Shown piece after piece: positions 3,236 through 45,319 of a stretch of 50,233 nt of DNA. Where the stretch lies: positions 1 to 50,233 of the forward strand of contig JAAYEC010000017.1 in the NCBI GenBank assembly GCA_012728915.1. Direction: 5' to 3'. The notes beneath the pieces are model-generated. The model was not told the origin of the DNA and made no database searches. It saw nothing but the letters and a program-made list of their open reading frames with translations. The stretch is from Deltaproteobacteria bacterium. GTDB taxonomy: Bacteria; Desulfobacterota; Syntrophia; Syntrophales; UBA2192. Numbering within the stretch: position 1 is the stretch's first letter; the number at the start of each line of letters is the position of its first letter. A program made the position numbers and the translations under genes.

Positions 3236-4393
3236 ATGTACAAGGCCTTTTCCTTCACGGGAGCGAAAAAGATCGTCTTCGGCTGCGGCTCCTTTTCCGG
3301 GCTCGTCGGCCAGGTGCGGGACCTTCGGGCGAAAAAGCCCTTCGTGGCTGTCGACGGCAACCTGGCCAAGCTGGGCGTGGGGGACAGGATCGCGGAGATG
3401 TTTGACCGGGGGGGCATGAAGGCCGTCCTTTACGACCGGGTGTTGCCGGAACCCCCCCTCGAGCAGGCCGACGAGGGCGCCGGGCTCGCCCTGAAGGGCA
3501 AATGCGATATCGTGATCGGGATCGGGGGAGGCAGCGCCATGGACGTGGCCAAGGCCGTGGCCGTCGTGGCGGCCCACGGTGCCGAGGCGAAAGATTTCCT
3601 GGGGCTCAACAGGGTCCCCGGGCCGGGCCTTCCGACGATCATGGTGCCGACGACCGCCGGGACGGGAAGCGAGGTGACCTTCACGGCGGTCTTCGTCCGT
3701 CACGATCTCAAGAAAAAAGAGGGGATGAACAGTATGTTCATGTACCCGGACCTGGCACTGCTCGACCCGGAGCTGACCCTGAGCCTTCCGCCCCAGCCGA
3801 CGGCAGCCTCCGGCATGGACGCACTCTGCCACGCCATCGAGTCCTACACGTCGGTGATCGCGAGCCCGGCAAGCGAGATGTTTTCCCTGCGGGCCATCGG
3901 CCTGATCGCCGAGAACCTGAGAACCTGCGTCCACAACGGCGGGAACCTCGAGGCCCGCGAGGCCCAGATGCTGGGCAGTCTCTACGCGGGCATCGGACTG
4001 GCCAACGCCGGCGTCGGCGCGGCCCACTCGCTCTCCTACCCGCTGGGCGGCAAGTACGGCATCTCCCACGGGGTTGCCAACACGCTCATGCTCCCGCGGA
4101 TCATGGAGTTCAACCTGCCGGGGGCCCTGGAGAAATTCGCGGACGTCGCCGAGATGATGGGGGAAAACACGGAGGGGCTCTCCGTTCGTGACGCGGCCAT
4201 GCTGGCCGTGGAGGCCGTCGATGCCCTCATCGAGGACTGCGGTATCGCCACGGGCCTGGAGGAGCTCGGGATTCCCGAGGAGGATTACTCGGAGATGGCG
4301 AGGGTGGCCATGACGGTCGCAAGGCCCCTGGAGAATAATCCCCGCAAGGTAACCCTCGAGGACGCCATCGCGATCTACCGGACGGCCATGTAA
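3236..4393 (+). CDS. kdnB: Iron-containing alcohol dehydrogenase, probable KDO 8-oxidase (KdnB-like)
   Basis: A 385-residue group III Fe-dependent alcohol dehydrogenase. The NAD(P) motif GGGSAMD covers residues 98-103, and the four metal ligands are visible as D195, H199, H264 and H278. The ATG at 3236 follows AGGAGG at good spacing; a longer in-frame opening upstream has no start signal and overlaps the previous gene. The family alone does not give a substrate, but the next gene is a KdnA-like aminotransferase and hldD and kdsB follow. In Shewanella, KdnB oxidises KDO at C8 and KdnA aminates it. The KdnB role is therefore inferred from context; a general alcohol dehydrogenase is the alternative. 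Confidence 0.72.
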   Translation: MYKAFSFTGAKKIVFGCGSFSGLVGQVRDLRAKKPFVAVDGNLAKLGVGDRIAEMFDRGGMKAVLYDRVLPEPPLEQADEGAGLALKGKCDIVIGIGGGSAMDVAKAVAVVAAHGAEAKDFLGLNRVPGPGLPTIMVPTTAGTGSEVTFTAVFVRHDLKKKEGMNSMFMYPDLALLDPELTLSLPPQPTAASGMDALCHAIESYTSVIASPASEMFSLRAIGLIAENLRTCVHNGGNLEAREAQMLGSLYAGIGLANAGVGAAHSLSYPLGGKYGISHGVANTLMLPRIMEFNLPGALEKFADVAEMMGENTEGLSVRDAAMLAVEAVDALIEDCGIATGLEELGIPEEDYSEMARVAMTVARPLENNPRKVTLEDAIAIYRTAM

Positions 4394-4400
4394 AGAAGAG

Positions 4401-4480
4401 GGCAAGAAGGTTCGAGGGTGAGACGGTGAGATAAAAAAGGAATTTCTCAACCACTTACCTTCTCAACTTCTTACCTTCGC
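4401..4480. repeat. Inverted pair of tandem 8-bp units (period-8 family, copy 1)
   Basis: The left arm (4401-4431) reads as 8-bp units AAGGTTCG, AGGGTGAG, ACGGTGAG. The right arm (4445-4480), on the minus strand, reads AAGGTAAG, AAGTTGAG, AAGGTAAG, TGGTTGAG. The arms are separated by an A-rich 13-bp loop and would form an imperfect hairpin. It lies 8 bp after the kdnB stop codon in an otherwise tight operon. Confidence 0.75.
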
Positions 4481-4548
4481 GAAGGCCGGCTCGGGTCTTT
4501 TCATAACGATATCACAGAACAGTAAAGAGAATCTGGAGGCAGAAAGAC

Positions 4549-5751
4549 ATGGCCGGATCAGAGCTTTTCGGAAAAGAGGAATTGAAAGAAGTCATGGATG
4601 TCATGGAGACGGGCATCCTGATGCGATACGGGTTTGACAAGGAACGGAAGGGCGTTTTCAAGGTCCGGCAGTTCGAGCAAGAATTCGCCGGGTATCTTGG
4701 GGCCTCCCACACGCTTGGCGTAACGTCGGGAACGGCTGCCCTCGTGGTTGCTCTGGCCGCTCTGGATGTCGGGCCCGGCGACGAGGTGATCGTGCCGCCG
4801 TTCACGTTCAATGCCACCTACGAGGCCGTCCTGGAAGCCGGGGCAATGCCGATTCCCGGGGATATCGACGAGAGCCTGAATCTGGACCCCGAGAGCATCG
4901 AGAGGCGGCTGACCCCTTACACGAAGGCCGTCATCCCCGTCCACATGTGCGGAGCGCCGGCCGATATGGACGGAATCATGGCGATCGCCAGGAAACGGAA
5001 TCTCAAGGTGCTCGAGGACAACGCGCAGAGCGCGGGCGGGAGCTACCGCGGGAAAAAGCTCGGGACCATCGGGGACATGGGGATTCTCAGCTTCGACTTC
5101 TACAAGACCATGACGACGGGCGAAGGCGGGATGGTCATCACGAACGACAAAAATCTCTACCTGCGCGCCGAGTGGTATCACGATCACGGCCATGACCACA
5201 ACCCGAAGGTGAGCCGCGCCCTCGAGGGCCGCTCCATTCTCGGCCTGAATTTCCGCATGAACGAGCTTCAGGGGGCCCTGGGCCTTGCCCAGCTGAGAAA
5301 GCTCGACACGATCATCGCCGAGCAGCGTAAGAACAAGGCCGCCGTCCGAGACGCGCTGAGCGCAGTGCCCGGGATCCGTTTCAGGCACATTCCCGACCCG
5401 CAGGGCGACACGGGCACCTTTATCGCGTTCCATCTGCCCTCCGCGTCGCAGACCAGGGACTTCCAGAAGGCGATGCTCGCCCAGGGCGTGGAACTGGTCT
5501 ACTACTACGAAAACTTCTGGCACTACCTGCCCAACTGGGAGCACTTCCTCTCGCAGAGCACCGTGAACTCAAAGAAGTATCCGTTCAAGGATCCTTCCTA
5601 CAAGGGAAAGGCGGAATACGGCCGGGAGCTTTATCCGAAGGCCGAAGAGCTCATGTCCAGGACGCTGTGCATGGCCATCCCCGTGAAAATGCCGGCCGGC
5701 CGCGTCGAGCAAATTGCCGGGGCCGCGCAGAAGGCCGCGGAAGCGATCTGA
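4549..5751 (+). CDS. kdnA: KDO 8-aminotransferase, DegT/DnrJ/EryC1 family (KdnA-like)
   Basis: A 400-residue PLP-dependent sugar aminotransferase. PLP residues are visible: SGTAAL near 60, D157 in LEDNAQSAGGSYRG, and the Schiff-base lysine K186 in SFDFYKTMTTGEGG. Beyond family level, the opening (SELFGKEELKEVMDVMETG), GLNFRMNELQGALGLAQLRK and the WHYLPNWEH stretch closely resemble Shewanella KdnA as recalled. KdnA converts 8-oxo-KDO to 8-amino-3,8-dideoxy-manno-octulosonate with glutamate. GGAGG precedes the ATG. It sits between kdnB and hldD with kdsB downstream, which fits LPS inner-core synthesis. A different sugar-nucleotide aminotransferase remains possible. Confidence 0.82.
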   Translation: MAGSELFGKEELKEVMDVMETGILMRYGFDKERKGVFKVRQFEQEFAGYLGASHTLGVTSGTAALVVALAALDVGPGDEVIVPPFTFNATYEAVLEAGAMPIPGDIDESLNLDPESIERRLTPYTKAVIPVHMCGAPADMDGIMAIARKRNLKVLEDNAQSAGGSYRGKKLGTIGDMGILSFDFYKTMTTGEGGMVITNDKNLYLRAEWYHDHGHDHNPKVSRALEGRSILGLNFRMNELQGALGLAQLRKLDTIIAEQRKNKAAVRDALSAVPGIRFRHIPDPQGDTGTFIAFHLPSASQTRDFQKAMLAQGVELVYYYENFWHYLPNWEHFLSQSTVNSKKYPFKDPSYKGKAEYGRELYPKAEELMSRTLCMAIPVKMPAGRVEQIAGAAQKAAEAI

Positions 5752-5831
5752 AGAAAAATTCGGATTGCCTTTCGCCTCGAGCCCCATGACCGTCGCCGGC
5801 CGCAGAGCGGCATGCGAACGAGGAGACAAAC

Positions 5832-6803
5832 ATGTACATCGTCACCGGAGGGGCCGGTTTCATCGGCAGCGCCTTCGTCTGGAAGCTCAACCAGGAGGGG
5901 ATTGACGATATCCTGATCGTCGATGCCCTGGGTACCTCGGACAAGTGGAAGAATCTCGTCAAGAAACGCTATGCCGACTTCATCCACAAGGACGCCTTCT
6001 ACGAGATGCTCTGCGAAGGCCGGCTTCCCTTCAAGACAAAGGCCGTCATCCACATGGGGGCCTGCTCGTCGACGACGGAGCGCGACGCCGACTACCTCAT
6101 GGAGAACAACGTCCACTACAGCTGCGCGCTGGCACGCTGGGCGGTGGCAAGGAAAATCCCCTTTCTCTACGCCTCCAGCGCGGCCACCTACGGCGACGGC
6201 TCCCTCGGGTTTTCCGACGCCGACAGGACGACGCCGGCGCTTCAGCCCATCAACATGTACGGCTACTCGAAGCAGCTCTTCGATCTCTGGGTGATTCGCA
6301 ACAAGCTCCTGGGAAAGGTCACGGGGATCAAGTTCTTCAACGTCTTCGGGCCCAACGAGTACCACAAGGGCGAGATGCGCAGCGTCGTGCACAAGTCCTT
6401 CGGCCAGATCCGCCAGACGGGGAAGGTGCAGCTCTTCAAGTCCCACCGGGAGGGATTCGGACACGGCGAGCAGGTCCGCGACTTCGTCTACGTGAAGGAC
6501 TGCGTCGAGGTGATGTGGTGGCTGCTGAAGCACCCGAAGGCCAGGGGGATCTTCAATCTCGGCACGGGCAGGGCCCGCACGTGGAACGATCTCGTGTCGG
6601 CCGTGTTCAAGGCCTCGGGCGTGAAACCTGACATCGAGTACATCGACATGCCTCTCGAGATCCGCGACCAGTACCAGTACGTGACGGAAGCGAAGATGGA
6701 CAAACTGCGCAAGACGGGCTGCCCGGTGAAGTGCCGGTCGCTGGAGGACGCCATCGAGGATTACGTGAAGGGGCATCTGCAGCAGAAGGACCCTTACCTG
6801 TGA
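5832..6803 (+). CDS. hldD: ADP-L-glycero-D-manno-heptose 6-epimerase
   Basis: A 323-residue extended short-chain dehydrogenase making the L-glycero-D-manno-heptose donor of the LPS inner core. The NADP-binding GGAGFIG is at residues 6-12, the catalytic region has ASSAATYG followed by YGYSK (Y-x3-K), and FNVFGPNEYHKGEMRS is typical of HldD. GAGGAGA precedes the ATG. It follows kdnA by 80 bp and precedes kdsB, so heptose and KDO precursor genes are clustered. Length equals that of E. coli HldD within a few residues. Confidence 0.92.
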   Translation: MYIVTGGAGFIGSAFVWKLNQEGIDDILIVDALGTSDKWKNLVKKRYADFIHKDAFYEMLCEGRLPFKTKAVIHMGACSSTTERDADYLMENNVHYSCALARWAVARKIPFLYASSAATYGDGSLGFSDADRTTPALQPINMYGYSKQLFDLWVIRNKLLGKVTGIKFFNVFGPNEYHKGEMRSVVHKSFGQIRQTGKVQLFKSHREGFGHGEQVRDFVYVKDCVEVMWWLLKHPKARGIFNLGTGRARTWNDLVSAVFKASGVKPDIEYIDMPLEIRDQYQYVTEAKMDKLRKTGCPVKCRSLEDAIEDYVKGHLQQKDPYL

Positions 6804-6818
6804 GGACCGGGGGCGCAT

Positions 6819-6848
6819 CCTCACCTGCATACCCTCTTACCTTCTGCC
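6819..6848. repeat. Single arm of period-8 repeat (copy 2)
   Basis: On the minus strand this reads as AAGGTAAG, AGGGTATG, CAGGTGAG, the same 8-bp family as 4401-4480 and 11098-11204. No inverted partner is present. It follows a GGGGGCGCATCC motif (6809-6820) just after the hldD stop codon and lies in the 114-bp gap before kdsB. Confidence 0.6.
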
Positions 6849-6917
6849 CTGCAGGGGCCCTGTGTCCGACTTTTTATGACAGCCTGTAAAAAGACAACCG
6901 GCTGCCGGGAAGCAAAC

Positions 6918-7658
6918 ATGAAGGTTGTTGTCGTCATTCCGTCGCGCTATCAGTCGACGCGGTTCATGGGGAAGCCGCTGGCCGACGTGCTGGGAAAGCC
7001 CATGATCCAGCACGTCTATGAAAGGGTGCTGCGGTCGAAGACGGCCTCGCTGGCGGCCGTGGCGACGGACGACCGGCGGATCTTCGAGGCCGTCGAGAAG
7101 TTCGGCGGTCGCGCCATCCTGACCTCGCCGGAGCATCCCTCCGGAACGGACCGGATTGCAGAGGCCGTGGGGAGGCTGGGCCTGGCCGACTCGGACATCG
7201 TCGTCAATATCCAGGGGGACCAGCCCACCTTCGAACCCGTGCAGATCGATGAGGTCGTTGAGCCGCTCCTGAAAGACTCCTCCCTGGACTTCTCGACGCT
7301 GATCTACCGGATCAGCCGGGACGGGGAGCTGACCGACCCCAACGCCGTCAAGGTCGTCTTCGACCGGGACCACTTTGCCCTGTACTTCTCGCGCGCGACG
7401 ATCCCCTTCGTGCGCGACCGGGGGGGAAAAGCGGACTACTGGAAGCACCACGGCATCTACGCCTACCGCAAGTCCTTTCTGATCGCATTCACGAGACTCC
7501 CCCAAGGGACCCTGGAAAAGCTGGAGGCCCTGGAGCAACTCCGGGCCCTCGAGCACGGCTACCGGATCAAGGTGGTGGAGACGGAGTTCGACTCCATCGA
7601 GGTGGACACCCCGGCGGACCTGGAGCGCGTCAAGGCGCTCCTGGCCGCAAAACCCTGA
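6918..7658 (+). CDS. kdsB: CMP-KDO synthetase (3-deoxy-manno-octulosonate cytidylyltransferase)
   Basis: A 246-residue cytidylyltransferase that activates KDO with CTP before transfer to lipid A. The N-terminus IPSRYQSTRFMGKPLADV carries the CTP-binding motif, ATDDRRI and HPSGTDRIAEA follow, and NIQGDQPTFEP is the metal-binding signature. The start is the ATG at 6918; an upstream in-frame ATG at 6876 would add 14 residues unlike the family. In Shewanella the linked KdsB prefers 8-amino-KDO, so this copy may do the same; that cannot be read from sequence. It is 9 bp from the next gene. Confidence 0.93.
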   Translation: MKVVVVIPSRYQSTRFMGKPLADVLGKPMIQHVYERVLRSKTASLAAVATDDRRIFEAVEKFGGRAILTSPEHPSGTDRIAEAVGRLGLADSDIVVNIQGDQPTFEPVQIDEVVEPLLKDSSLDFSTLIYRISRDGELTDPNAVKVVFDRDHFALYFSRATIPFVRDRGGKADYWKHHGIYAYRKSFLIAFTRLPQGTLEKLEALEQLRALEHGYRIKVVETEFDSIEVDTPADLERVKALLAAKP

Positions 7659-7667
7659 GGGGGGCCC

Positions 7668-8411
7668 ATGAAGATCATCGACTCCCACATGCACTGCGGC
7701 ATCCAGAACTCGGAGCTGCCCATCGAGCTCATCCGCGCCTACCTGGACCGCGCGGGCATCAAGGGGGCCTGCCTCTACCCGCCCGTCGAGGACATCTACG
7801 ACCGCTACGATGCTCACTTCGAGGACAACGCCCGCTGGGTGGCGTGCCGGCAGATGGCGAACGACTACCTGCTCGCGATCCAGCAGCGGGACCCCGACAT
7901 TCACGCCTACTACTTCGTCTGGAACGATTTTCGGAAGGGCGAGCTGAAGAGGGGTTACAGGGGAATCAAGTGGCACCGGCACGACTACGAGCCGGTCTAC
8001 CACTATGACGACCCGGCCTGCGAGGCATTCCTGGAAGAGGTCTTTCGTCTCCAGCTGCCCGTCGTCCTGGAGGAGTCCTTCCAGAACACGCGGTATTTTA
8101 TCGGTCGGGTGGCCGGGCGCGTCCCGGTCATCATCCCTCACCTCGGGGGGCTCAACGGGGGATTCGACGCGCTCCTCGAGGCGGGTGTCTGGGACGGCGA
8201 AACGGTTTATGCCGACACGGCCCTCGCATCGACCCGGGAGATGGAGAGATTTCTGAAACGCTACGGCAGCCGAAAGCTGCTCTTCGGCAGCGATTTCCCC
8301 TTCGGCATTCCCACGAGCGAACTATCGAAGGTCCGAAGCCTGGGGCTGAAGGACGAAGATTTCGAAAACGTCGTGAGGAGGAACGTCCTGCGGCTCATCG
8401 GGCAGGAATAG
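7668..8411 (+). CDS. Amidohydrolase-2 family TIM-barrel metal-dependent hydrolase
   Basis: A 247-residue protein with the amidohydrolase metal motif HxH (H7, H9 in DSHMHCG), the core GIKWHRHDYEP, IIPHLGGLNGG and the terminal GSDFPFG aspartate motif. The family includes 2-pyrone-4,6-dicarboxylate lactonase and decarboxylases such as ACMSD. The substrate is not recognisable. GGGGGG precedes the ATG and the gene follows kdsB by 9 bp, so it is cotranscribed with the LPS genes, but no established role in KDO metabolism is known to me. Confidence 0.8.
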   Translation: MKIIDSHMHCGIQNSELPIELIRAYLDRAGIKGACLYPPVEDIYDRYDAHFEDNARWVACRQMANDYLLAIQQRDPDIHAYYFVWNDFRKGELKRGYRGIKWHRHDYEPVYHYDDPACEAFLEEVFRLQLPVVLEESFQNTRYFIGRVAGRVPVIIPHLGGLNGGFDALLEAGVWDGETVYADTALASTREMERFLKRYGSRKLLFGSDFPFGIPTSELSKVRSLGLKDEDFENVVRRNVLRLIGQE

Positions 8412-8536
8412 CGGCTGCCGGACGGGGGCGCACGCCTCCCGTTCGCCCCGTCCTGGCTCGGGAGGTTCGAACGCGTCGGCGGCATGCTGCAGGGCCCTGC
8501 TTTTAGGCAGGCAACGCAGAAGAAAGGAAAGCCGGC

Positions 8537-9178
8537 ATGAAGATTGTCGACGGCCTTTACGGGTTTCTCTGGCGGAGCGCCAGCGAGAACAACTGCAACA
8601 GCTTTTTCATCGACGGCTCGAAGAGGATCCTCATCGACCCGGGTCATCGCCACCTTTTCCAGCACGTCCGCAGGGGCCTGGAGCGGATCGGCGTCACCAC
8701 GGAGCAGATCGATGTCGTTCTCGTCACCCACGGGCATCCCGATCACTTCGAAACTGCGGGCTCTTTTGGACCCTCCGCCCGATGGGCTATGAGCCGCATC
8801 GATTACGAGTTCGTCATGGAGTATCTAGGCGCCCAAACGGACCTTCCCCAGCCCGCCTTTTTCCTCCAGGAAGGCGGCCTGCTGATCGGGGACAGGGACT
8901 TTCTGGTGATCCATACGCCGGGCCACTCCCCCGGGTCGGTCTGCCTGTACTGGCGGCAGCAGAAGGTTCTCTTCACGGGGGACGTGGTCTTCAACCAGAG
9001 CATCGGCAGGACGGATCTGCCCGGCGGGTCGGGCAGGCAGCTCAAGGAGAGCATCTCGAGGCTGGCCGAACTCGACGTGGAGGTCCTCTGCCCGGGTCAC
9101 GGGGACGTGGTGGCCGGACGGGAGAACGTCAGGAAGAACTTCAAGATGATCAAGGATTTCTGGTTCAGCTATTTATGA
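8537..9178 (+). CDS. Metallo-beta-lactamase-fold hydrolase
   Basis: A 213-residue MBL-fold protein. Motif 2 reads THGHPDH near residue 60 (HxHxDH), HTPGHSPGSVCLY near 128 gives the next histidine, TGDVVF near 149 the bridging aspartate, and CPGHGD near 189 the last histidine. All metal ligands of a dinuclear glyoxalase-II-like site are present. Such proteins hydrolyse thioesters or related bonds; the substrate here is unknown. It ends the plus-strand group and overlaps by 14 bp the end of the convergent gene at 9165. Confidence 0.85.
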   Translation: MKIVDGLYGFLWRSASENNCNSFFIDGSKRILIDPGHRHLFQHVRRGLERIGVTTEQIDVVLVTHGHPDHFETAGSFGPSARWAMSRIDYEFVMEYLGAQTDLPQPAFFLQEGGLLIGDRDFLVIHTPGHSPGSVCLYWRQQKVLFTGDVVFNQSIGRTDLPGGSGRQLKESISRLAELDVEVLCPGHGDVVAGRENVRKNFKMIKDFWFSYL

Positions 9179-9686
9179 CCTCGAGGAGGCGCTTTGAGCA
9201 GGCAGCCTGCATCTGCTCCCTCAGCGCTTTCCACTGCGGGTCGGCCTCCGGGTTGGGCAGCACGGCCGAACCCGCGATCCCCTGCGATTCCAGCCCCTCT
9301 CGCTGCCGCTCCGCCAGGGCGGTCTTCCGGGCGAAATACTCGGCCTGGCAGGACCGAAGGGTGTCCTGCAGCCGCTCCCCGGGCGTTCCGACAAGCTCGG
9401 TGACGATTCGGAAGAGCCGCTCGTTGTCGGACTCGGGATCGACATGAAGAGCCAGGGCGTTCTTCAGGTGGCCCATGGCTTCCGCAACGTGGCCGCTCTT
9501 CCTTTCCTTGTCCAGCTCGTCCCTGACGCCGTCGATCGTCAGGCTGTTGTCCAGCAGGCGCTGGACGAGGCCCCGGATGCGCTTTTCGCGCTCCTGCCGG
9601 TGCCACGCCTCGCGCTCTTGCGGGCTTGCGGAGAGGTCTTTCGTGCGCTCCATGATGAGGTCGATGGTGCTCTTGATTTCCGCCAT
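9165..9686 (-). CDS. Hypothetical charged helical protein
   Basis: A 173-residue protein with no domain that I recognise. It is rich in Glu, Arg, Lys and Gln and looks almost wholly helical, with no signal peptide or membrane segment. Segments such as REAWHRQEREKRIRGLVQRLLD and AEYFARKTALAERQREGLESQ suggest coiled coil. A good ribosome-binding site (AGGAGAAGG) precedes the ATG. It is the last gene behind the exporter operon (122-bp gap), so it may be cotranscribed, and its end overlaps the convergent MBL gene. Codon use matches its neighbours, which supports a real gene. Confidence 0.7.
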   Translation of the reverse strand: MAEIKSTIDLIMERTKDLSASPQEREAWHRQEREKRIRGLVQRLLDNSLTIDGVRDELDKERKSGHVAEAMGHLKNALALHVDPESDNERLFRIVTELVGTPGERLQDTLRSCQAEYFARKTALAERQREGLESQGIAGSAVLPNPEADPQWKALREQMQAACSKRLLEVINS

Positions 9687-9808
9687 GGTCCTTCTCCTCG
9701 GGCAGCGATGCGCGCCCTGTCCGGCCGCTTCCGCGTGCTTTGCTCCGGATGGTCATGAAGAATAAGCCCTCCGCGACGATTTGTCCATGAAAATCACCGG
9801 GCTGCAGG

Positions 9809-11038
9809 TTACGTGCGCAGGATGTCCACGGGCTCGAACTGGGTGGCCTTCCTGGACGGATAGATGCCCGCCAGGACGCCGACGAGAACCGAGGCCGAGA
9901 AGGCGATGGCCAGGCCCGTGAGGGAGAGGGTGAAGGGATACTTCAGGACGCCCAGCAGGATGATGCTTATCAGGGCCCCCGAGAAGACGCCGATCATGCC
10001 GCCTGCAAGCGAGATGATGGAGGACTCGATCAGGAACTGCAGCACGATGTCGCGCTTGCGCGACCCCACGGCGCGCCGGATCCCGATCTCGAGCTTCCTC
10101 TCGTTGACGATCAGGATCATGATCGAGAGGATGCCGAGGCCGCCGATGGTGAAGGACACGGCGGCGGCGATTCGGCCGAGCACGGTGATGAGATCCATGG
10201 CCTGAGCCTTCAGGGCCATGACGTCCTTCATGTCGATGACCGCAAAGTCGTCGTTTTGCCCCGGACCGATCTTGTGGCGCTTGCGCAGGAGGGCCTCTAT
10301 GTCCGTTTTCGTCGGGGAGACGAGATCGTCTCGGGTGACCTGGACGAAAATGTTGCTCACGTTCGTCTTGTTGACCAGGACCTTCAGGTAGGTCTGCAGG
10401 GGGACGAAGATCTGATTGTCCTGATCGGCCCCGGAGACATCGGATCCCTTCTCCTCCATGACGCCGATCACCCGGAAGGGGGCCCGCCAGATCAGGATGT
10501 GACGGCCGATGGGGTTTTCGTCGCCGAAAAGCTTCTCCGCGACGGTGCGGCCCAGGACGGCCACCTTGTTGCGGTCCAGGCTGTCCTGATCGGAGAAGAA
10601 GCTTCCCTGCCGGGCGCGGAAGTTCCGGACATCCTGGAAGTTCGGCTCCACTCCGCCGACGAGAATCCCCGCCAGGGAGATGTTGCCGTAACGGACGGGG
10701 AAGGTCTTGTATCCCGCGGCGGACAGGTCGGCAACGGCGGGGATGGACTCCCGGATCGCCCGGGCATCTTCCGGGGTCAGGTTCGTCGCCTGGCTCATCA
10801 GCGGTGTGCCCGCTCCGACGCGCCGCACGATACCGCTGCGGACGATGAGGAGATTCTTGCCTAGGCTGTCGATTTCCTGTTCGGTCTTGACGGCCAGCGA
10901 CCCGGAGAGATTGGAGACGATGATGAGCGAGAACGTGCCGAAGAACACGCCTAGCACGGCGAGCGTGGTGCGCCACTTGAACTGCACCAGCGAACGCCTT
11001 GCGATTTTCAGGTTGAGCAGGATGCGCCTGAGGTCCAT
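9809..11038 (-). CDS. ABC transporter permease, MacB/FtsX type (second permease)
   Basis: A 409-residue MacB-type permease without a fused ATPase. One transmembrane helix near residues 22-45 is followed by a periplasmic MacB_PCD domain of about 220 residues (LTPEDARAIRESIP, VGGVEPNF, NPIGRHILI), then three C-terminal helices (about 285-400) with the coupling segment RRAVGSRKRDI and the ending PVDILRT. The start at 11038 (MDLRRILLNL) gives the normal cytoplasmic N-terminus; upstream in-frame residues run into a repeat. It probably pairs with the other permease and the separate ATPase as a heteromeric MacB. Confidence 0.9.
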   Translation of the reverse strand: MDLRRILLNLKIARRSLVQFKWRTTLAVLGVFFGTFSLIIVSNLSGSLAVKTEQEIDSLGKNLLIVRSGIVRRVGAGTPLMSQATNLTPEDARAIRESIPAVADLSAAGYKTFPVRYGNISLAGILVGGVEPNFQDVRNFRARQGSFFSDQDSLDRNKVAVLGRTVAEKLFGDENPIGRHILIWRAPFRVIGVMEEKGSDVSGADQDNQIFVPLQTYLKVLVNKTNVSNIFVQVTRDDLVSPTKTDIEALLRKRHKIGPGQNDDFAVIDMKDVMALKAQAMDLITVLGRIAAAVSFTIGGLGILSIMILIVNERKLEIGIRRAVGSRKRDIVLQFLIESSIISLAGGMIGVFSGALISIILLGVLKYPFTLSLTGLAIAFSASVLVGVLAGIYPSRKATQFEPVDILRT

Positions 11039-11097
11039 CGATCCATCTCTTCTTCTTATCGGGGCAGTCGGGACTGAATGCCGAACGCGCCTATAGC

Positions 11098-11204
11098 GCA
11101 GAAGGTGAGAGGGTAAGAAGGTAAGAAGGTTGGAGAAGCAGAGGGCAGGCAACAGGCTCTTTCTGTATCCAACGTTCTCACCCTCTCACGTTCTTACCTT
11201 CTGG
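11098..11204. repeat. Inverted pair of tandem 8-bp units (period-8 family, copy 3)
   Basis: The left arm (11098-11133) runs AAGGTGAG, AGGGTAAG, AAGGTAAG, AAGGTTGG. The right arm (11169-11204) on the opposite strand runs AAGGTAAG, AACGTGAG, AGGGTGAG, AACGTTGG. The two 36-bp arms agree at 28 positions and enclose a 35-bp loop. The element fills the gap between the two permease genes and its right arm ends 8 bp before the stop codon of the upstream permease. Confidence 0.82.
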
Positions 11205-11211
11205 TTATCCA

Positions 11212-12426
11212 CTACGTCCTGATCGCCTCGATCGGCTTCAGGTTCGCCGCCTGCCTTGCCGGGTGGAGGCCAAAACCCAACCCGACGGCCCAGGACAAAA
11301 AGAGCCCGGTGACGAAGGCCTTCCAGGAAAAGTACACGGGGATCTCGGCCACGTATGTGAGCAACCGGGCCGCGGCCACCCCGAGGAGGAAGCCCACAAT
11401 GCCCCCGGCGGAGGTGATCATCACGGCCTCCGTGAGAAACTGCGCCAGGATGTCCCTCTTGCGGGCTCCCACGGAGCGACGGATCCCGATCTCCTTGACC
11501 CGCTCCTTCACGGATAGAAGGAACAGGTTGGCCAGGACGAACCCCGCGACGATGAGGGAAATCACGCCCACAACCCCGATGAAGGCCACGAGGGAGCCCG
11601 TGAGGGCGACAAGAAACTTGACGATGTCCTTGGACGTGAAGATCCGGAAATCATCGGGCTGCCCGTCGGGGATCCGGTGGCGGTAACGGAGGAGCCGCTT
11701 CAGTTCCTCGACGCGGCCGTCGATGTTCTCCAGGTCGGTGAAGCGCAGGCGCATGGCGTGGACGTAGCGCTGCTCGTTCAGGAGCTTTTTCATCACCGTA
11801 GTGTAGGGCATGATGATGCGGTTATCGAGGCTGCCGCCCCCCGGCGAGGTCCCGCGCTCGGAGAGCACGCCAACGATCTGGACGGGCAGGTTGCGCACCT
11901 GGACGAACTTGCCCACGGGACTTTGATCGCCGAAGAGCTCCCGGGCCGTTTCCTGACCGATGATCCCCACGTTGGCGTAGCGCCGGATGTCATCCTCGGT
12001 GAAGTCGGAGCCCTCCACGACGGGCCACGTCCAGGCCACGCTGTAATCGCTCGTGGACCCCACGATCTGACTCTGGTACCGGTTTCCCCTGTAGGAAACC
12101 GTGGCGGTTCCCACCCAGGACGAGGGGGCGACGACGTAGGCCGTGGGGAAGGCCTGGCGGATGGCCTCCACGTCCTCGAGGGTAATCGTTTTTTCCCGCT
12201 GGCCGATAGCGCGGGATTCTTCGCTTCCGCCCATGAGCATGACGGAGTCGGGGCCGAAGCTGGCCACGATGTCAAAGGCCTTCTTGTAGGCGCCCTCCGT
12301 GGCGGCGACGATGATCGTGATGGCCGAAATCCCCAGGGCAACGCTCACGAGGCAGAAAAGGGTCCTCAGCTTGAAGGCCTTGACGGCCTCGAAGGACTGG
12401 ATGAGCAGCAGGAAGAAGCGTTCCAT
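11212..12426 (-). CDS. ABC transporter permease, MacB/FtsX type (first permease)
   Basis: A 404-residue FtsX-domain permease. An N-terminal helix near residues 17-42 (TLFCLVSVALGISAITIIVA) precedes a periplasmic MacB_PCD domain with ESRAIGQREKTITLEDVEAIRQ and ETARELFGDQSPVGK. Three C-terminal helices follow, with SVKERVKEIGIRRSVGARKRDIL between them. It ends LKPIEAIRT, like MacB. No strong Shine-Dalgarno sequence precedes the ATG, which lies 97 bp after the ATPase gene, across a period-7 repeat. Substrate is unknown. Confidence 0.9.
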   Translation of the reverse strand: MERFFLLLIQSFEAVKAFKLRTLFCLVSVALGISAITIIVAATEGAYKKAFDIVASFGPDSVMLMGGSEESRAIGQREKTITLEDVEAIRQAFPTAYVVAPSSWVGTATVSYRGNRYQSQIVGSTSDYSVAWTWPVVEGSDFTEDDIRRYANVGIIGQETARELFGDQSPVGKFVQVRNLPVQIVGVLSERGTSPGGGSLDNRIIMPYTTVMKKLLNEQRYVHAMRLRFTDLENIDGRVEELKRLLRYRHRIPDGQPDDFRIFTSKDIVKFLVALTGSLVAFIGVVGVISLIVAGFVLANLFLLSVKERVKEIGIRRSVGARKRDILAQFLTEAVMITSAGGIVGFLLGVAAARLLTYVAEIPVYFSWKAFVTGLFLSWAVGLGFGLHPARQAANLKPIEAIRT

Positions 12427-12442: not shown

Positions 12443-12524
12443 GGGCGAAGGGCGAAAGGCTAAAGGGGTCGAAGGAGAACGAGCTGTCTTGCCGTACGCC
12501 ATAAGCCTTTTGCCCTTAGCCGGC
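12443..12524. repeat. Inverted pair of tandem 7-bp units (period-7 family, copy 2)
   Basis: The left arm (12443-12470) divides into GGGCGAA, GGGCGAA, AGGCTAA, AGGGGTC. The right arm (12490-12524) divides into TGCCGTA, CGCCATA, AGCCTTT, TGCCCTT, AGCCGGC. Reverse-complementing the right arm gives about 19 of 24 matches to the left in the best-preserved part. The right arm meets the stop codon of the ATPase gene, and the left arm lies just upstream of the next start codon. Confidence 0.8.
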
Positions 12525-20794: not shown

Positions 20795-20891
20795 AGGCTG
20801 AAGGCGTAAGACTAAGGGCCCAAGGCAAAGACGAAGAGGATCCGATGGATTCTTTCTGCCCTAAGCCTTTTGCCCTTCGCCTTATGCCTCA
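20795..20891. repeat. Inverted pair of tandem 7-bp units (period-7 family, copy 3)
   Basis: The left arm (20795-20829) divides into AGGCTGA, AGGCGTA, AGACTAA, GGGCCCA, AGGCAAA. The right arm (20857-20891) divides into TGCCCTA, AGCCTTT, TGCCCTT, CGCCTTA, TGCCTCA. About 24 of 35 positions match when one arm is inverted. It fills the gap between convergent stop codons of the PHP gene (20790) and lipA (20893), where it could also act as a transcription-stopping hairpin. Confidence 0.85.
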
Positions 20892-20892
20892 A

Positions 20893-21729
20893 TCATGCAT
20901 ATTCCGCCGCGCGGTAGGAGCTGCGGACGAGCGGTCCGGAGACGACGGTTCTGAATCCCCTGAGAAGCGCTTCCCGCCTGAATCCTTCGAATTCTTCCGG
21001 CGTGTAGAATTTATCGACGGGCCGGTGAGCGGCCGTGGGCTGCAGGTATTGGCCGATGGTGAGGCTCGAGCAGGAAGCAGCGGAAAGGTCGTCGAGGAGC
21101 GAAAGGATCTCGTCCCGGTGTTCCCCGAAGCCGATCATGAACCCGGACTTCGTGATCGGCCCGCCCCGCGCGGCGGCCCGGCGGAGAAGCTCCAGCGAAA
21201 GGGCGTAGCTGCCCTGGGGCCGCAGATCGGAAAAGAGCCGGGGGATCACCTCGACGTTGTGATTCAGAACCCGGGGACCCGCCTCGAGGATCCTGTCCAG
21301 GGCCTCCCAGTTTCCTCGCAGATCCGGGACCAAGACCTCCACCCTGCAATCCGGGATCTCCTCTTTCAGTAGGCGAACACAGCGGGCAAAAAGGCCCGCG
21401 CCGCCGTCCGGGAGATCATCCCGCGTGACGGAGGTGATGACGATGTGGCGCAGCCCGAGATGTTTGGCCGCTGCCGCGAGGCGCTCGGGCTCCGACTCGT
21501 CCACCGGGGCGGGCTTGCCGTGCCGAACATTGCAGTACCGGCAGTTCCGGGTACAGAGGCGGCCTAGGATCAGGAAGGTGGCCGTGCCGGAGCGGAAACA
21601 CTCCCCCATGTTGGGGCATCGGGCCTCCTGGCAGACGGAATGGAGGCCGAGGCTGTCGAGGAGCCCGCGGACCTCGATGAATTCCCGTGAGTTCGGCAGG
21701 GGGACCTTGAGCCAGTCGGGTTTACGCAT
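20893..21729 (-). CDS. lipA: Lipoyl synthase
   Basis: A 278-residue radical-SAM enzyme inserting two sulfurs into an octanoyl group on GcvH and related proteins. The auxiliary cluster cysteines are C33, C38 and C44 (CQEARCPNMGEC), and the radical-SAM motif is C59-C63-C66 (CTRNCRYC). LNHNVEV and SGFMIGFGE follow. The start is the ATG at 21729; an in-frame TTG at 21762 would add 11 residues encoded by repeat DNA. The conserved C-terminal RSSY is present. It closes the glycine-cleavage cluster and serves its H protein. No lipB is in view. Confidence 0.95.
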   Translation of the reverse strand: MRKPDWLKVPLPNSREFIEVRGLLDSLGLHSVCQEARCPNMGECFRSGTATFLILGRLCTRNCRYCNVRHGKPAPVDESEPERLAAAAKHLGLRHIVITSVTRDDLPDGGAGLFARCVRLLKEEIPDCRVEVLVPDLRGNWEALDRILEAGPRVLNHNVEVIPRLFSDLRPQGSYALSLELLRRAAARGGPITKSGFMIGFGEHRDEILSLLDDLSAASCSSLTIGQYLQPTAAHRPVDKFYTPEEFEGFRREALLRGFRTVVSGPLVRSSYRAAEYA

Positions 21730-21733
21730 GGGA

Positions 21734-21801
21734 TGGCCAAAGGCTAAAAGTTCCAGAGACAAGATGAATGATTTCCCTTAGCCTATTGCCCTTCGCCGGC
21801 T
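21734..21801. repeat. Inverted pair of tandem 7-bp units (period-7 family, copy 4)
   Basis: The left arm starts TGGCCAA, AGGCTAA (21734-21747) and decays; the right arm (21774-21801) keeps GCC at 21781, 21788 and 21795, exactly 7 bp apart. It fills the gap between the aminomutase stop codon (21801-21803) and the lipA start codon (21729). Confidence 0.72.
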
Positions 21802-29973: not shown

Positions 29974-30004
29974 GGCCGTCCGTCAAAGAACCGGAAAAAA
30001 CAGA

Positions 30005-30043
30005 AAACCCCCGGTCGGCAATCCCGGGGGTTTCTCTATTTTT
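30005..30043. terminator. Bidirectional intrinsic terminator
   Basis: AAACCCCCGG (30005-30014) pairs with CCGGGGGTTT (30024-30033), followed by CTCTATTTTT on the plus strand and by a TTTTCTGTTTTTT tract on the minus strand. It serves the aminotransferase and the convergent J-domain gene, whose TAG stop codon (30036-30038) lies inside the T-rich tail. Confidence 0.9.
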
Positions 30044-31412: not shown

Positions 31413-32540
31413 ATGAGCGAATCTGTTCTCTTTCACCCCGCGAGGATCGGCTCCCTGGAGCTCCCCAACCGGTTTGTCCGCTCCGCCACATGGGAAGGCC
31501 TTGCGGCGCCCGACGGGGACTGCACGGAGGAACTCGTCAGGCTCATGGGGGAGCTTGCCGCAGGCGGCGTGGGGCTCATCATTTCGAGCCACGCCTACGT
31601 GAAGCCCGAGGGGTTTGCAGTGAGGGGGCAGCTGGGCGTCGACCGCGACGAACGCATCCCCGGGCTTGCCCGGATGGCAAAGGCCGTGCATGACAGGGGC
31701 GGGAGAATCGTCCTGCAGTTGGCCCACGGCGGCATCCTGGCGGGCACCGAGCCGGCGGGACAGCCCGTCTTTGCCCCGTCGCGGGAAGGGGGCCCCGAGA
31801 AGACACGCCGCCGCGAAATGATGCATGCCGATATCGCCGACACGGTCAGGGCCTACGGCGAGGCGGCGCTGAGGGCCAAAAAGGCGGGCTTTGACGGGAT
31901 ACAGGTCCACGCCGCCCACGGCTACCTCCTCAGCCAGTTCCTCTCCCCCTGGTTCAACCGCAGAACGGATCAATACGGCGGAAGCATCGAAAACAGGGTA
32001 CGGATCATCCAGGAGATCCTTGCCGAAGCGCGAAGGGCCGTGGGCGGGGAGTACCCCGTCCTGGTGAAGATGAATTCCGAGGATTTCCTGGAGGGCGGCC
32101 TCTCGCGGCAGGACGCTCGGCAGGCGGGGCTTCTCATCGCCGCAGCCGGCGCCGATGCGATCGAACTCTCCGGCGGCACACTTCTTTCAGGCAGGCTGAG
32201 CCCCTCGCGCGCGAAGATCGACACCCCCGCGCAGGAAGCGTACTTCCGGGATGCCGCCCGGGCCCTGAGGTCGAAGCTGAAGATCCCCCTGATCCTCGTC
32301 GGCGGGATCCGGTCCTTCGAGGTGGCCGAGGCCCTGGTCAGGGAGGGGTTCGCGGATTTCGTCTCGATGAGCCGCCCCTTCATCCGGGAGCCGGGCCTCG
32401 TCAACCGCTGGAAGAGCGGCGACCGGAGAAGGTCGACCTGCGTGTCGGACAACCGCTGCTTCGGGCCGGCCATGCGCGGGACGGGCTTTTACTGCGTCGC
32501 AGAAAAGGAAGGAAGGCCGGAAAGGCAGGAGAGCGGATAA
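31413..32540 (+). CDS. NADH:flavin oxidoreductase / Old Yellow Enzyme family
   Basis: A 375-residue single-domain FMN enzyme. PARIGSLELPNRFVRSATWEG is the typical start; VLQLAHGG near 100, QVHAAHGYLLSQFLSPWFNRRTD near 165 (His pair for substrate) and VGGIRSFEVAEALV near 305 (phosphate binding) complete the barrel. It lacks the iron-sulfur and FAD/NAD domains of 2,4-dienoyl-CoA reductase, though the C-terminus has CVSDNRCFG. Substrates of this group are activated alkenes; which one is unknown. Confidence 0.9.
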   Translation: MSESVLFHPARIGSLELPNRFVRSATWEGLAAPDGDCTEELVRLMGELAAGGVGLIISSHAYVKPEGFAVRGQLGVDRDERIPGLARMAKAVHDRGGRIVLQLAHGGILAGTEPAGQPVFAPSREGGPEKTRRREMMHADIADTVRAYGEAALRAKKAGFDGIQVHAAHGYLLSQFLSPWFNRRTDQYGGSIENRVRIIQEILAEARRAVGGEYPVLVKMNSEDFLEGGLSRQDARQAGLLIAAAGADAIELSGGTLLSGRLSPSRAKIDTPAQEAYFRDAARALRSKLKIPLILVGGIRSFEVAEALVREGFADFVSMSRPFIREPGLVNRWKSGDRRRSTCVSDNRCFGPAMRGTGFYCVAEKEGRPERQESG

Positions 32541-32566
32541 GCGAAACGGTTCGTTTTCTGCTCTTC

Positions 32567-33001
32567 CTACCTTTCGATCGTTTTCGCGTTCTTCTTGCCG
32601 CGGGTGCGATGGTAGCCCAGGGCCTGCCCCGTGGCGACGAGCGTTCCCGATCCGCCGTGCACCTCGACGGTCCAGAGGCTCAGGGCCCTCTTGATGTCGA
32701 CGGGTCTGGCCTCCGCCGTGATGCGCTCCCCGGGGGCTGCGGCGGCGAGGTAGTTGATCTTGAGCTCCACGAGCAGGACGTCGTCCCCCAGCGAGTTGGC
32801 GGCCACGGCGGCCGCCTGGTCGATTACGGACGACAGGATCATCCCGTGCGCGCGTTCATGGCTGTTCAGATACTCGGGACGGATCTCGACGGAGAGGCGG
32901 GAATAGGCCCGCCGGACCTCCTCGAGGCGGATCCCGAGGAACGAGGCCATGGGGTCCCTGGCCACGATTTCGCGGGCGTAGGTCACGTTGGCATCATCCA
33001 T
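32567..33001 (-). CDS. PaaI-like hotdog-fold thioesterase
   Basis: A 144-residue hotdog protein. FLGIRLEEVRRAYSRLSVEIRPEYLNSHERAHGMILSSVIDQAAAVAAN matches the 4HBT/PaaI pattern, with HGM in place of the usual HGG and the helix carrying D near residue 61. Members hydrolyse aryl-acyl or acyl-CoA thioesters. It is convergent with the OYE gene (27 bp apart). No linked aromatic-degradation genes are visible, so a role in clearing acyl-CoA is inferred from family only. Confidence 0.85.
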   Translation of the reverse strand: MDDANVTYAREIVARDPMASFLGIRLEEVRRAYSRLSVEIRPEYLNSHERAHGMILSSVIDQAAAVAANSLGDDVLLVELKINYLAAAAPGERITAEARPVDIKRALSLWTVEVHGGSGTLVATGQALGYHRTRGKKNAKTIER

Positions 33002-39083: not shown

Positions 39084-39119
39084 TTTTTCGCGGTTTCTTC
39101 CGCAGGAAACCGCGAAAAA
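39084..39119. promoter_or_regulatory. 14-bp inverted repeat between divergent tauE-like and por operons
   Basis: TTTTTCGCGGTTTC (39084-39097) and GAAACCGCGAAAAA (39106-39119) are perfect inverted copies around an 8-bp loop. The T run is on the 5' side and the A run on the 3' side in either direction, so it is not an ordinary intrinsic terminator. Its place between divergent genes suggests an operator or a leader hairpin. Confidence 0.5.
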
Positions 39120-45101: not shown

Positions 45102-45177
45102 TCCCCGGTAGCTCAGTCGGTAGAGCAGCTGGCTGTTAACCAGCGGGTCACATGTTCGAGTCATGTCCGGGGAGCCA
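45102..45177 (+). tRNA. tRNA-Asn (anticodon GUU)
   Basis: The acceptor TCCCCGG (45102-45108) pairs with CCGGGGA (45167-45173), with discriminator G and encoded CCA (45175-45177). The anticodon loop CTGTTAA gives GTT. The D arm (GCTCAGTCGGTAGAGC) and T loop (TTCGAGT) are canonical. It marks the boundary to the lower-GC segment that follows. Confidence 0.96.
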
Positions 45178-45215
45178 TAAACAAGGGGCTCGGCCTTGCG
45201 CCGAGCCCTTGTTTA
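45178..45215. terminator. Long inverted repeat next to tRNA-Asn, probable bidirectional terminator
   Basis: TAAACAAGGGGCTCGGC (45178-45194) and GCCGAGCCCTTGTTTA (45200-45215) pair over 16 bp with one bulged G and a five-base loop. The ends are A/T-rich but lack a long T run. It directly follows the tRNA and lies after the convergent helicase gene, so it can stop both transcripts; its location is also typical of an integration site. Confidence 0.6.
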
Positions 45216-45319
45216 TGGCACTCTCGGTCTGGCAAGAACATCGACATTCCCGACCAATGGAACTTTCTTATGGAGCATGTTGATTCGCCCTGGTGGGTCT
45301 ATATTTGCTCCAAGACGGG

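Follow-up and report, generated by a model that had tools for sequence, protein, structure and literature searches.

Introduction

Intervening sequences (IVSs) of rRNA, whose mobile nature has been proposed for decades, are illustrated here by the IVS of Coxiella, in which GACAGAT heptamers precede the S23 open reading frame (ORF) and the transcript is cut by RNase III (PMC4990558). The cyanobacterial STRR sequences are intergenic, usually built of 7-bp units, capable of forming hairpins, and of unknown function (PMC2670836). Multicopy Geobacter elements, each with five tandem heptamers and drawn as two looped strands, were predicted to be regulator binding sites (PMC2700814), and the REPINs are non-autonomous hairpins of two inverted parts, present in many copies, each type being tied to a gene of the same genome (PMC3116915). 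The subject of this study is a set of intergenic hairpins with a period of eight nucleotides in a 50,233-nt stretch of DNA from an uncultured deltaproteobacterium (the window). The window is contig C8 of the genome labelled G000, which totals 2.79 Mb and consists of 81 contigs. We consider it probable that these octamer elements represent the gene-less and non-autonomous part of a hairpin class whose gene-bearing members hold in the loop a gene for the intervening sequence protein (IVP/S23), the 23S rRNA IVSs being the known examples located in rRNA.

The octamer elements share with the 23S rRNA IVSs of Coxiella and Leptospira the stem-forming inverted arms, the PF05635 ORF in the loop of gene-bearing members, and, probably, carriage within a host transcript; tandem heptamers adjoin the ORF in Coxiella (PMC4990558). 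Unlike the IVSs, they are intergenic, mostly gene-less, and dispersed in dozens of copies with period 8, and their cutting by RNase III would follow by analogy. All window copies lie between protein genes and none in a 23S rRNA gene. The STRR sequences, in turn, were described as repeats only, whereas the units of the window are 8 bp long; two further window hairpins, at 12444-12521 and 20802-20889, do have the STRR period of 7. The Geobacter elements differ in unit and period and were read as regulator binding sites. The gene tied to the present elements encodes a four-helix-bundle protein and not a tyrosine transposase as in the REPIN/RAYT systems, and the arms are periodic.

Association of Periodic Arms with IVP Genes

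The genome of the window itself contains a gene-bearing hairpin. At G000:C48:32233-32701, the same octamer arms as in the window elements (AGAAGGTAAG/AGAAGGTGAG) surround an intact 127-aa ORF, the product of which matched PF05635 (23S rRNA intervening sequence protein, IVP/S23) with E 3e-33 and TIGR02436 (four helix bundle protein) with E 4e-31, and has 2rld and 2gsc as solved relatives. The same protein weakly matched the models of Avd, the accessory protein of diversity-generating retroelements (NF033474, E 1e-6; PF22296, E 2e-5), both below the curated cut-offs. As far as sequence allows one to judge, IVPs may be distant relatives of the Avd proteins (PMC10053308).

Significant inverted arms, as judged here and below against mononucleotide shuffles, were found at 84 of the 122 IVP loci tested, which represented Desulfobacterota, Cyanobacteria, Bacteroidota, one spirochaete, and one alphaproteobacterium. 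The period was 7 at 64 loci, 8 at 17, and 9 at 3, with no other period seen. Arms were present at 50 of the 74 loci of the order-level set, comprising all readable PF05635 loci (period 7 in 39, period 8 in 11), at 18 of 30 in the phylum-wide set (16 with period 7, one each with 8 and 9), and at 16 of 18 in the set from named plasmids (nine with period 7, five with 8, two with 9), carried by Nostoc, Brasilonema, Tolypothrix, Leptolyngbya, Planktothrix, Calothrix, Pseudanabaena, Bernardetia, Treponema, Azospirillum, and others. Control genes read likewise had such arms in 7 of 347 cases; five of the seven were period-8 octamer arms, four of these beside the octamer elements of G000.

The type of arm followed the phylogeny of the protein. 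On the IVP tree, period 8 needed 4 changes, compared with 10.5 on average after shuffling (none of 500 shuffles was as low); it was present in eight of nine members of one clade (support 98/98), and the genus sub-clades split into GGT-armed and GGAAG-armed ones. Among named organisms, cyanobacteria had the IVPs most closely related to the octamer IVP (approximately 55% identity), and most of the cyanobacterial close relatives examined as new data had period-8 or period-9 arms. Over 100 genomes, octamer repeats and close IVP relatives co-occurred (Fisher 2e-10, and 6e-6 outside the genus, phylogeny being ignored). Solitary arrays behaved similarly: those of GGAAG type gave 35-158 matches in the four genus genomes with a GGAAG-armed IVP gene versus 3-27 in the other three, and CGGGATT arrays gave 345 matches in G006, where arms of this type surround an IVP gene, 168 in its relative G004, and at most 29 elsewhere.

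The arms of the Planktothrix IVP loci consist of AATCCCC repeats and resemble CCCCAAT, the STRR unit of the older literature. Very long period-7 arms of the ACAGATG/ACAGACT type surround another IVP gene (L252, G071:C59); they are of the same heptamer kind as the GACAGAT of the Coxiella rRNA IVS. One IVP gene lies between cas6 and cas4 in Pseudanabaena and another between DISARM drmD and BREX pglX in Planktothrix (L236:607-966; L234:634-993), and IVP is named in a figure legend on CRISPR-linked proteins (PMC10910872). Passenger insertion could explain the presence of IVP genes in defence operons.

Structure and Dispersal of the Octamer Elements

The full-length standard hairpin of the window occupies 107 bp at 11098..11204 (plus strand) and comprises four octamers, a 35-nt loop, and four inverted octamers. 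Its arms of 36 nt each (CAGAAGGTGAGAGGGTAAGAAGGTAAGAAGGTTGGA vs CAGAAGGTAAGAACGTGAGAGGGTGAGAACGTTGGA) match at 29 of 36 positions with a dominant period of 8; the inverted repeat (11099-11203) scored 44 vs a shuffled maximum of 20, the RNA fold z was -7.3/-6.5, and the R1 model gave 103.8 bits on the plus and 88.4 bits on the minus strand. The consensus orientation is plus and the surrounding MacB-type permease genes are on the minus strand. The second hairpin, with a shorter loop (4395..4481), starts right after the stop codon at 4393, ahead of a DegT-type aminotransferase gene, and has two arms of four octamers each with period 8 (4398-4478; score 28 vs a shuffled maximum of 24; model match E 2.6e-9). 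The third, at 6820..6851 (minus strand) between a heptose epimerase gene and a KdsB-type gene, is a single-arm remnant flanked by the two halves of a larger palindrome, the 5' half at 6804..6820 (plus strand, GACCGGGGGCGCATCC) and the 3' half with a T-run at 6862..6884 (plus strand, GTGTCCGACTTTTTATGACAGCC), which were delimited from the sequence and from a flank alignment of 45 copies; this palindrome encloses many octamer elements in the genus. Inspection of the sequence and an R1 match (E 8e-5) added a weak hairpin of the GGAAG/GGAAGAGC type at 32501..32585 (plus strand). Altogether, sequences close to the octamer pair occurred 19 times in the window vs 2.5 expected, and the loops of its copies measured approximately 15-35 nt.

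These data agree with the preliminary description of the window, which had recorded two inverted arms of four octamers at 4401-4480 and 11098-11204 (with 28 of 36 matching positions in the latter, one fewer than in our recount) and a single arm at 6819-6848, now recognised as what is left of a fuller element kept in a related species. Its placement of the copies within transcription units was likewise borne out, all three lying between co-directional genes, and conservation of the repeat unit, beyond the hairpin alone, extends over both the genome and the genus. Further copies plainly exist: with up to two mismatches, the octamer pair matched 262 times across the genome, compared with 8 matches for the reversed-pattern control.

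Full copies start with CAG, continue with four octamers (approximately AGGGTAAG AGGGTNTG AAGGTGAG AAGGTTGG), a loop of approximately 35 nt with the conserved stretches AGAAGC..GAGCAT.., and four inverted octamers, and end with CTG, giving approximately 107 bp. Individual octamers differ at fixed places, the loop is common to the copies, and polarity becomes visible only once the copies are oriented. Instead of a free tandem array, the standard form is a hairpin of fixed design, ~107 bp long. The arms of the copies pair at 83% of cells; the substitutions are uncompensated and all covariation measures fall below the shuffled means, which gives the copies the look of drifted members of a dispersed family and not of stems restored by compensatory substitutions.

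The origin of the copies suggested in the preliminary description, replication slippage plus inversion, was not supported: the single ~107-bp consensus, the fixed number of octamers, the position-specific differences, the common loop, and the polarity argue that the copies spread as units. Repeated creation of octamer arrays and quasi-palindromes in intergenic DNA of low complexity, through replication slippage and template switching and with no dispersal, would account for the octamer periodicity, for the long perfect arrays in G051, and for the variation of period and unit among species at one place; it is nevertheless highly improbable, already disfavoured by the loop and consensus that the copies have in common, and the unit number, length, and polarity are constant over dozens of loci and orthologous copies are stable. 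Slippage may be at work in some lineages, as 12 identical octamers stand in tandem in G051.

A covariance model gave at least 62-65 scored matches in six of the seven genus genomes and at least 33 in the seventh, counts that include both strands and hence are not exact copy numbers, the model E-values also being rough. Some of the order's other families had fewer matches and most had none. The nearest named genomes with the octamer repeat were mostly Syntrophaceae/Syntrophobacterales metagenome genomes (UBA5744, UBA2192, PtaB.Bin038, Gw_SlDig_bin_8). On a contig filed as Bacteroidetes (RUG11592; L097:1177-1573), an exact match to the octamer pattern was found, with octamer arms flanking a non-IVP gene.

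A dispersed unit with polarity and a REPIN-like layout of two inverted parts and a loop might also be a known type of miniature element, either a REPIN or a MITE, which owes its mobility to a transposase without relation to IVP and captured an IVP gene once. The genome does encode four Y1 transposases, and one orthologous gap is empty in the related genome G002. However, octamer arms lie near none of the four Y1_Tnp loci, no octamer arrays being present in ~3.3 kb around each, hence no cognate gene with adjoining repeats of the REPIN/RAYT kind was found among them and the Y1/RAYT transposases were rejected as partners. A single capture would also leave unexplained the period 7-9 arms around most IVP genes in five phyla, and we regard this explanation as improbable.

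Comparison of Orthologous Gaps

The gap at 11050-11212 is almost without spacer in G002, holds an unrelated spacer in G005, and contains in G004 and G006 a hairpin of the other octamer unit (GGAAGAGC/GGAAG type). At 4394-4549, GGT-type units are present in G000 and G005, and GGAAG-type units occupy the same place in G004 (as a hairpin) and, more diverged, in G001 and G003. The gap at 6803-6876 contains a full 99-bp element in G005, mainly the other arm in G004, and fragments in the others. At 21727-21800, a GGT-type octamer hairpin in G004 corresponds to CGGGATT-type and AAAGGCT-type heptamer hairpins in G006 and G005, respectively, and to a decayed one in the genome of the window (21735..21790, GGCCAAAGGCTAA), identified by the inverted-repeat test and this comparison. 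G006 has an IVP gene whose arms match its hairpin type at this place; G005 also has an IVP gene of the matching type, with arms just short of the significance threshold. Four orthologous copies were 79-93% identical and three of them were conserved about as well as their coding flanks.

GGAAG-type octamer arrays contain by chance an exact 13-mer of a common Illumina adapter (AGATCGGAAGAGC / GCTCTTCCGATCT), which was present in the gap between two MacB-type genes of G004 and G006 (L076, L077) and at many other GGAAG-array sites. Genomes of the genus could have these natural repeats cut or masked by read trimming or contamination screens.

Placement, Orientation, and Folding

The genome was examined as stretches around the matches, with genes around loci called by a short script that relied on codon usage learned from the window. 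Among 51 octamer features, 38 were in tandem gaps, compared with 7 in gaps between convergent genes and 3 between divergent genes, and full copies in tandem gaps began at a median of 29 nt from the stop codon and ended 60 nt before the next start. The model-assigned orientation in tandem gaps was opposite to transcription in 40 cases and along it in 7, four of these seven being near strand ties. Of the IVP genes with both neighbours callable, 35 had two neighbours running the same way as themselves and none had two running the other way; on the named plasmids, the annotation gave 10 vs 3 for own-direction and opposite-direction neighbours. Both gene-less and gene-bearing forms thus tend toward one orientation to the transcript. 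Under the broader proposition discussed below, this sense-only placement would point to elements that spread or persist through RNA, at the level of the transcript; the bias could come from RNA-level spread or from selection on orientation.

Many copies, that at 11098 excluded, are nested in the larger palindrome (5' GGCTGTTGACCGGGGGCGCATCC ... GCATCCGGGCGTTTTTGAACAGCC 3'), the halves of which flank the remnant at 6820-6851. Copies outside it show an equal orientation bias. Perhaps the element inserted into a pre-existing repeat or terminator, or perhaps the palindrome forms the outermost portion of the element itself. T-runs are present for some palindrome-embedded copies elsewhere. For 11098-11204, no T-run directly follows the stem in the direction of its transcript and a role as terminator was rejected. 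Rfam families at the gathering threshold in the window were limited to tRNAs and the small SRP RNA, the hairpins being unmatched, hence a known RNA family was rejected as well. The mean fold of the elements was -49 kcal/mol on the transcript strand vs -36 for random stretches of the window.

The tight placement behind stop codons, the near absence from divergent gaps, the prevalence of one orientation, the conservation of the orthologous copies, and the numerical excess of gene-less over gene-bearing copies, which is large, would all suit host-maintained elements that process RNA or attenuate transcription after stop codons. IVP genes would then be passengers in insertion-tolerant loops, as in 23S rRNA, and the protein would play no part in the spread of gene-less copies. 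We think this rather unlikely, since plain insertion into any hairpin would not yield many unrelated arm units that always have period 7-9 and a type tracking the IVP clade; the loop and consensus common to dozens of diverged copies also speak against it.

Additional Inverted Repeats in the Window

Within the permease/ABC gene cluster, the gap that follows the one with the 11098 hairpin contains a period-7 hairpin of the same general kind, with a GGCTAAA-type unit (12444..12521; score 32 vs a shuffled maximum of 22), and a hairpin with period-7 arms of an AGGC-type unit occupies a convergent gap (20802..20889; 30 vs 20 for shuffles). A long inverted repeat at 45152-45241 (GCCATAAACAAGGGGCTCGGC) overlaps and follows the tRNA gene 45102-45174. 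Strong non-periodic intergenic inverted repeats were seen at 39084-39119 and 29996-30043 (TTTTTCGCGGTTTC; AAAAACAGAAAACCCCCGG), the latter being perhaps a two-way terminator.

Discussion

The window elements share two features with the gene-bearing hairpins, namely inverted arms with a 7-9-nt period and the unit found in the IVP arms of the same genome, and lack the third, an IVP gene in the loop. Since their short loops leave no room for such a gene, they can be only gene-less relatives. According to the reading that we favour, the elements would be transcribed as part of the host operon, and the transcript would fold into a ~35-bp duplex that RNase III might cut as in the Coxiella rRNA IVS. 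The IVP would recognise the periodic arms and might help the element to spread or persist, acting in trans on the gene-less copies. That the arms serve as a binding array, as the preliminary description had also proposed, is possible, as they flank a gene of a family with nucleic-acid-binding relatives.

Several observations weigh against membership of the octamer elements in an IVP-linked hairpin class. Significant arms were missing at 38 of the 122 IVP loci, and among the ~52%-identical relatives of the octamer IVP, that of G071 had period-7 arms and those of G057 and G081 had no clear period-8 arms. G002 has 15 octamer matches with no close IVP relative found, and for the CGGGATT matches of G004, no corresponding IVP gene was present among those examined, both genomes being incomplete. 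Compensatory covariation in the arms of gene-less copies was absent, and the antisense strand folded slightly better than the transcript, which speaks against simple selection for an mRNA stem; taken together, these two results do not support selection for an RNA hairpin as such. A target-site duplication was not established, as the whole spacer differs in the empty gap of G002 and gives no exact junction. No movement was seen either: the closest within-genome pair among the sampled copies was only 89% alike, hence there was no sign of recent spread, and recent copying bursts were rejected.

A broader proposition is that periodic-arm hairpins, the cyanobacterial heptamer repeats and the rRNA IVSs among them, form one class throughout the bacteria and that IVP/S23 proteins are its dedicated factors, with each IVP clade recognising its own unit and period. 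We put it forward as a possibility that is, on balance, doubtful. In the open literature, most subscription journals being outside the search, we found no paper tying solitary periodic hairpins to IVP genes, none on a period-8 variant, and no published link between STRR sequences and IVP genes; the Coxiella paper was the only one found to connect IVP/S23 with periodic repeats.

If the favoured reading is true, two old puzzles would be one: what the four-helix-bundle protein of rRNA IVSs does, and what lies behind the short tandem heptamer hairpins seen in cyanobacteria and in bacteria of other groups. A widespread family of small proteins, so far carrying no annotation beyond "four helix bundle protein" or "S23 ribosomal protein", would gain a testable role. 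The intergenic regulatory elements inferred from tandem heptamers would need re-examination, and the sense-only placement would call for an explanation at the RNA level. Finally, each type of solitary hairpin would identify its partner protein.

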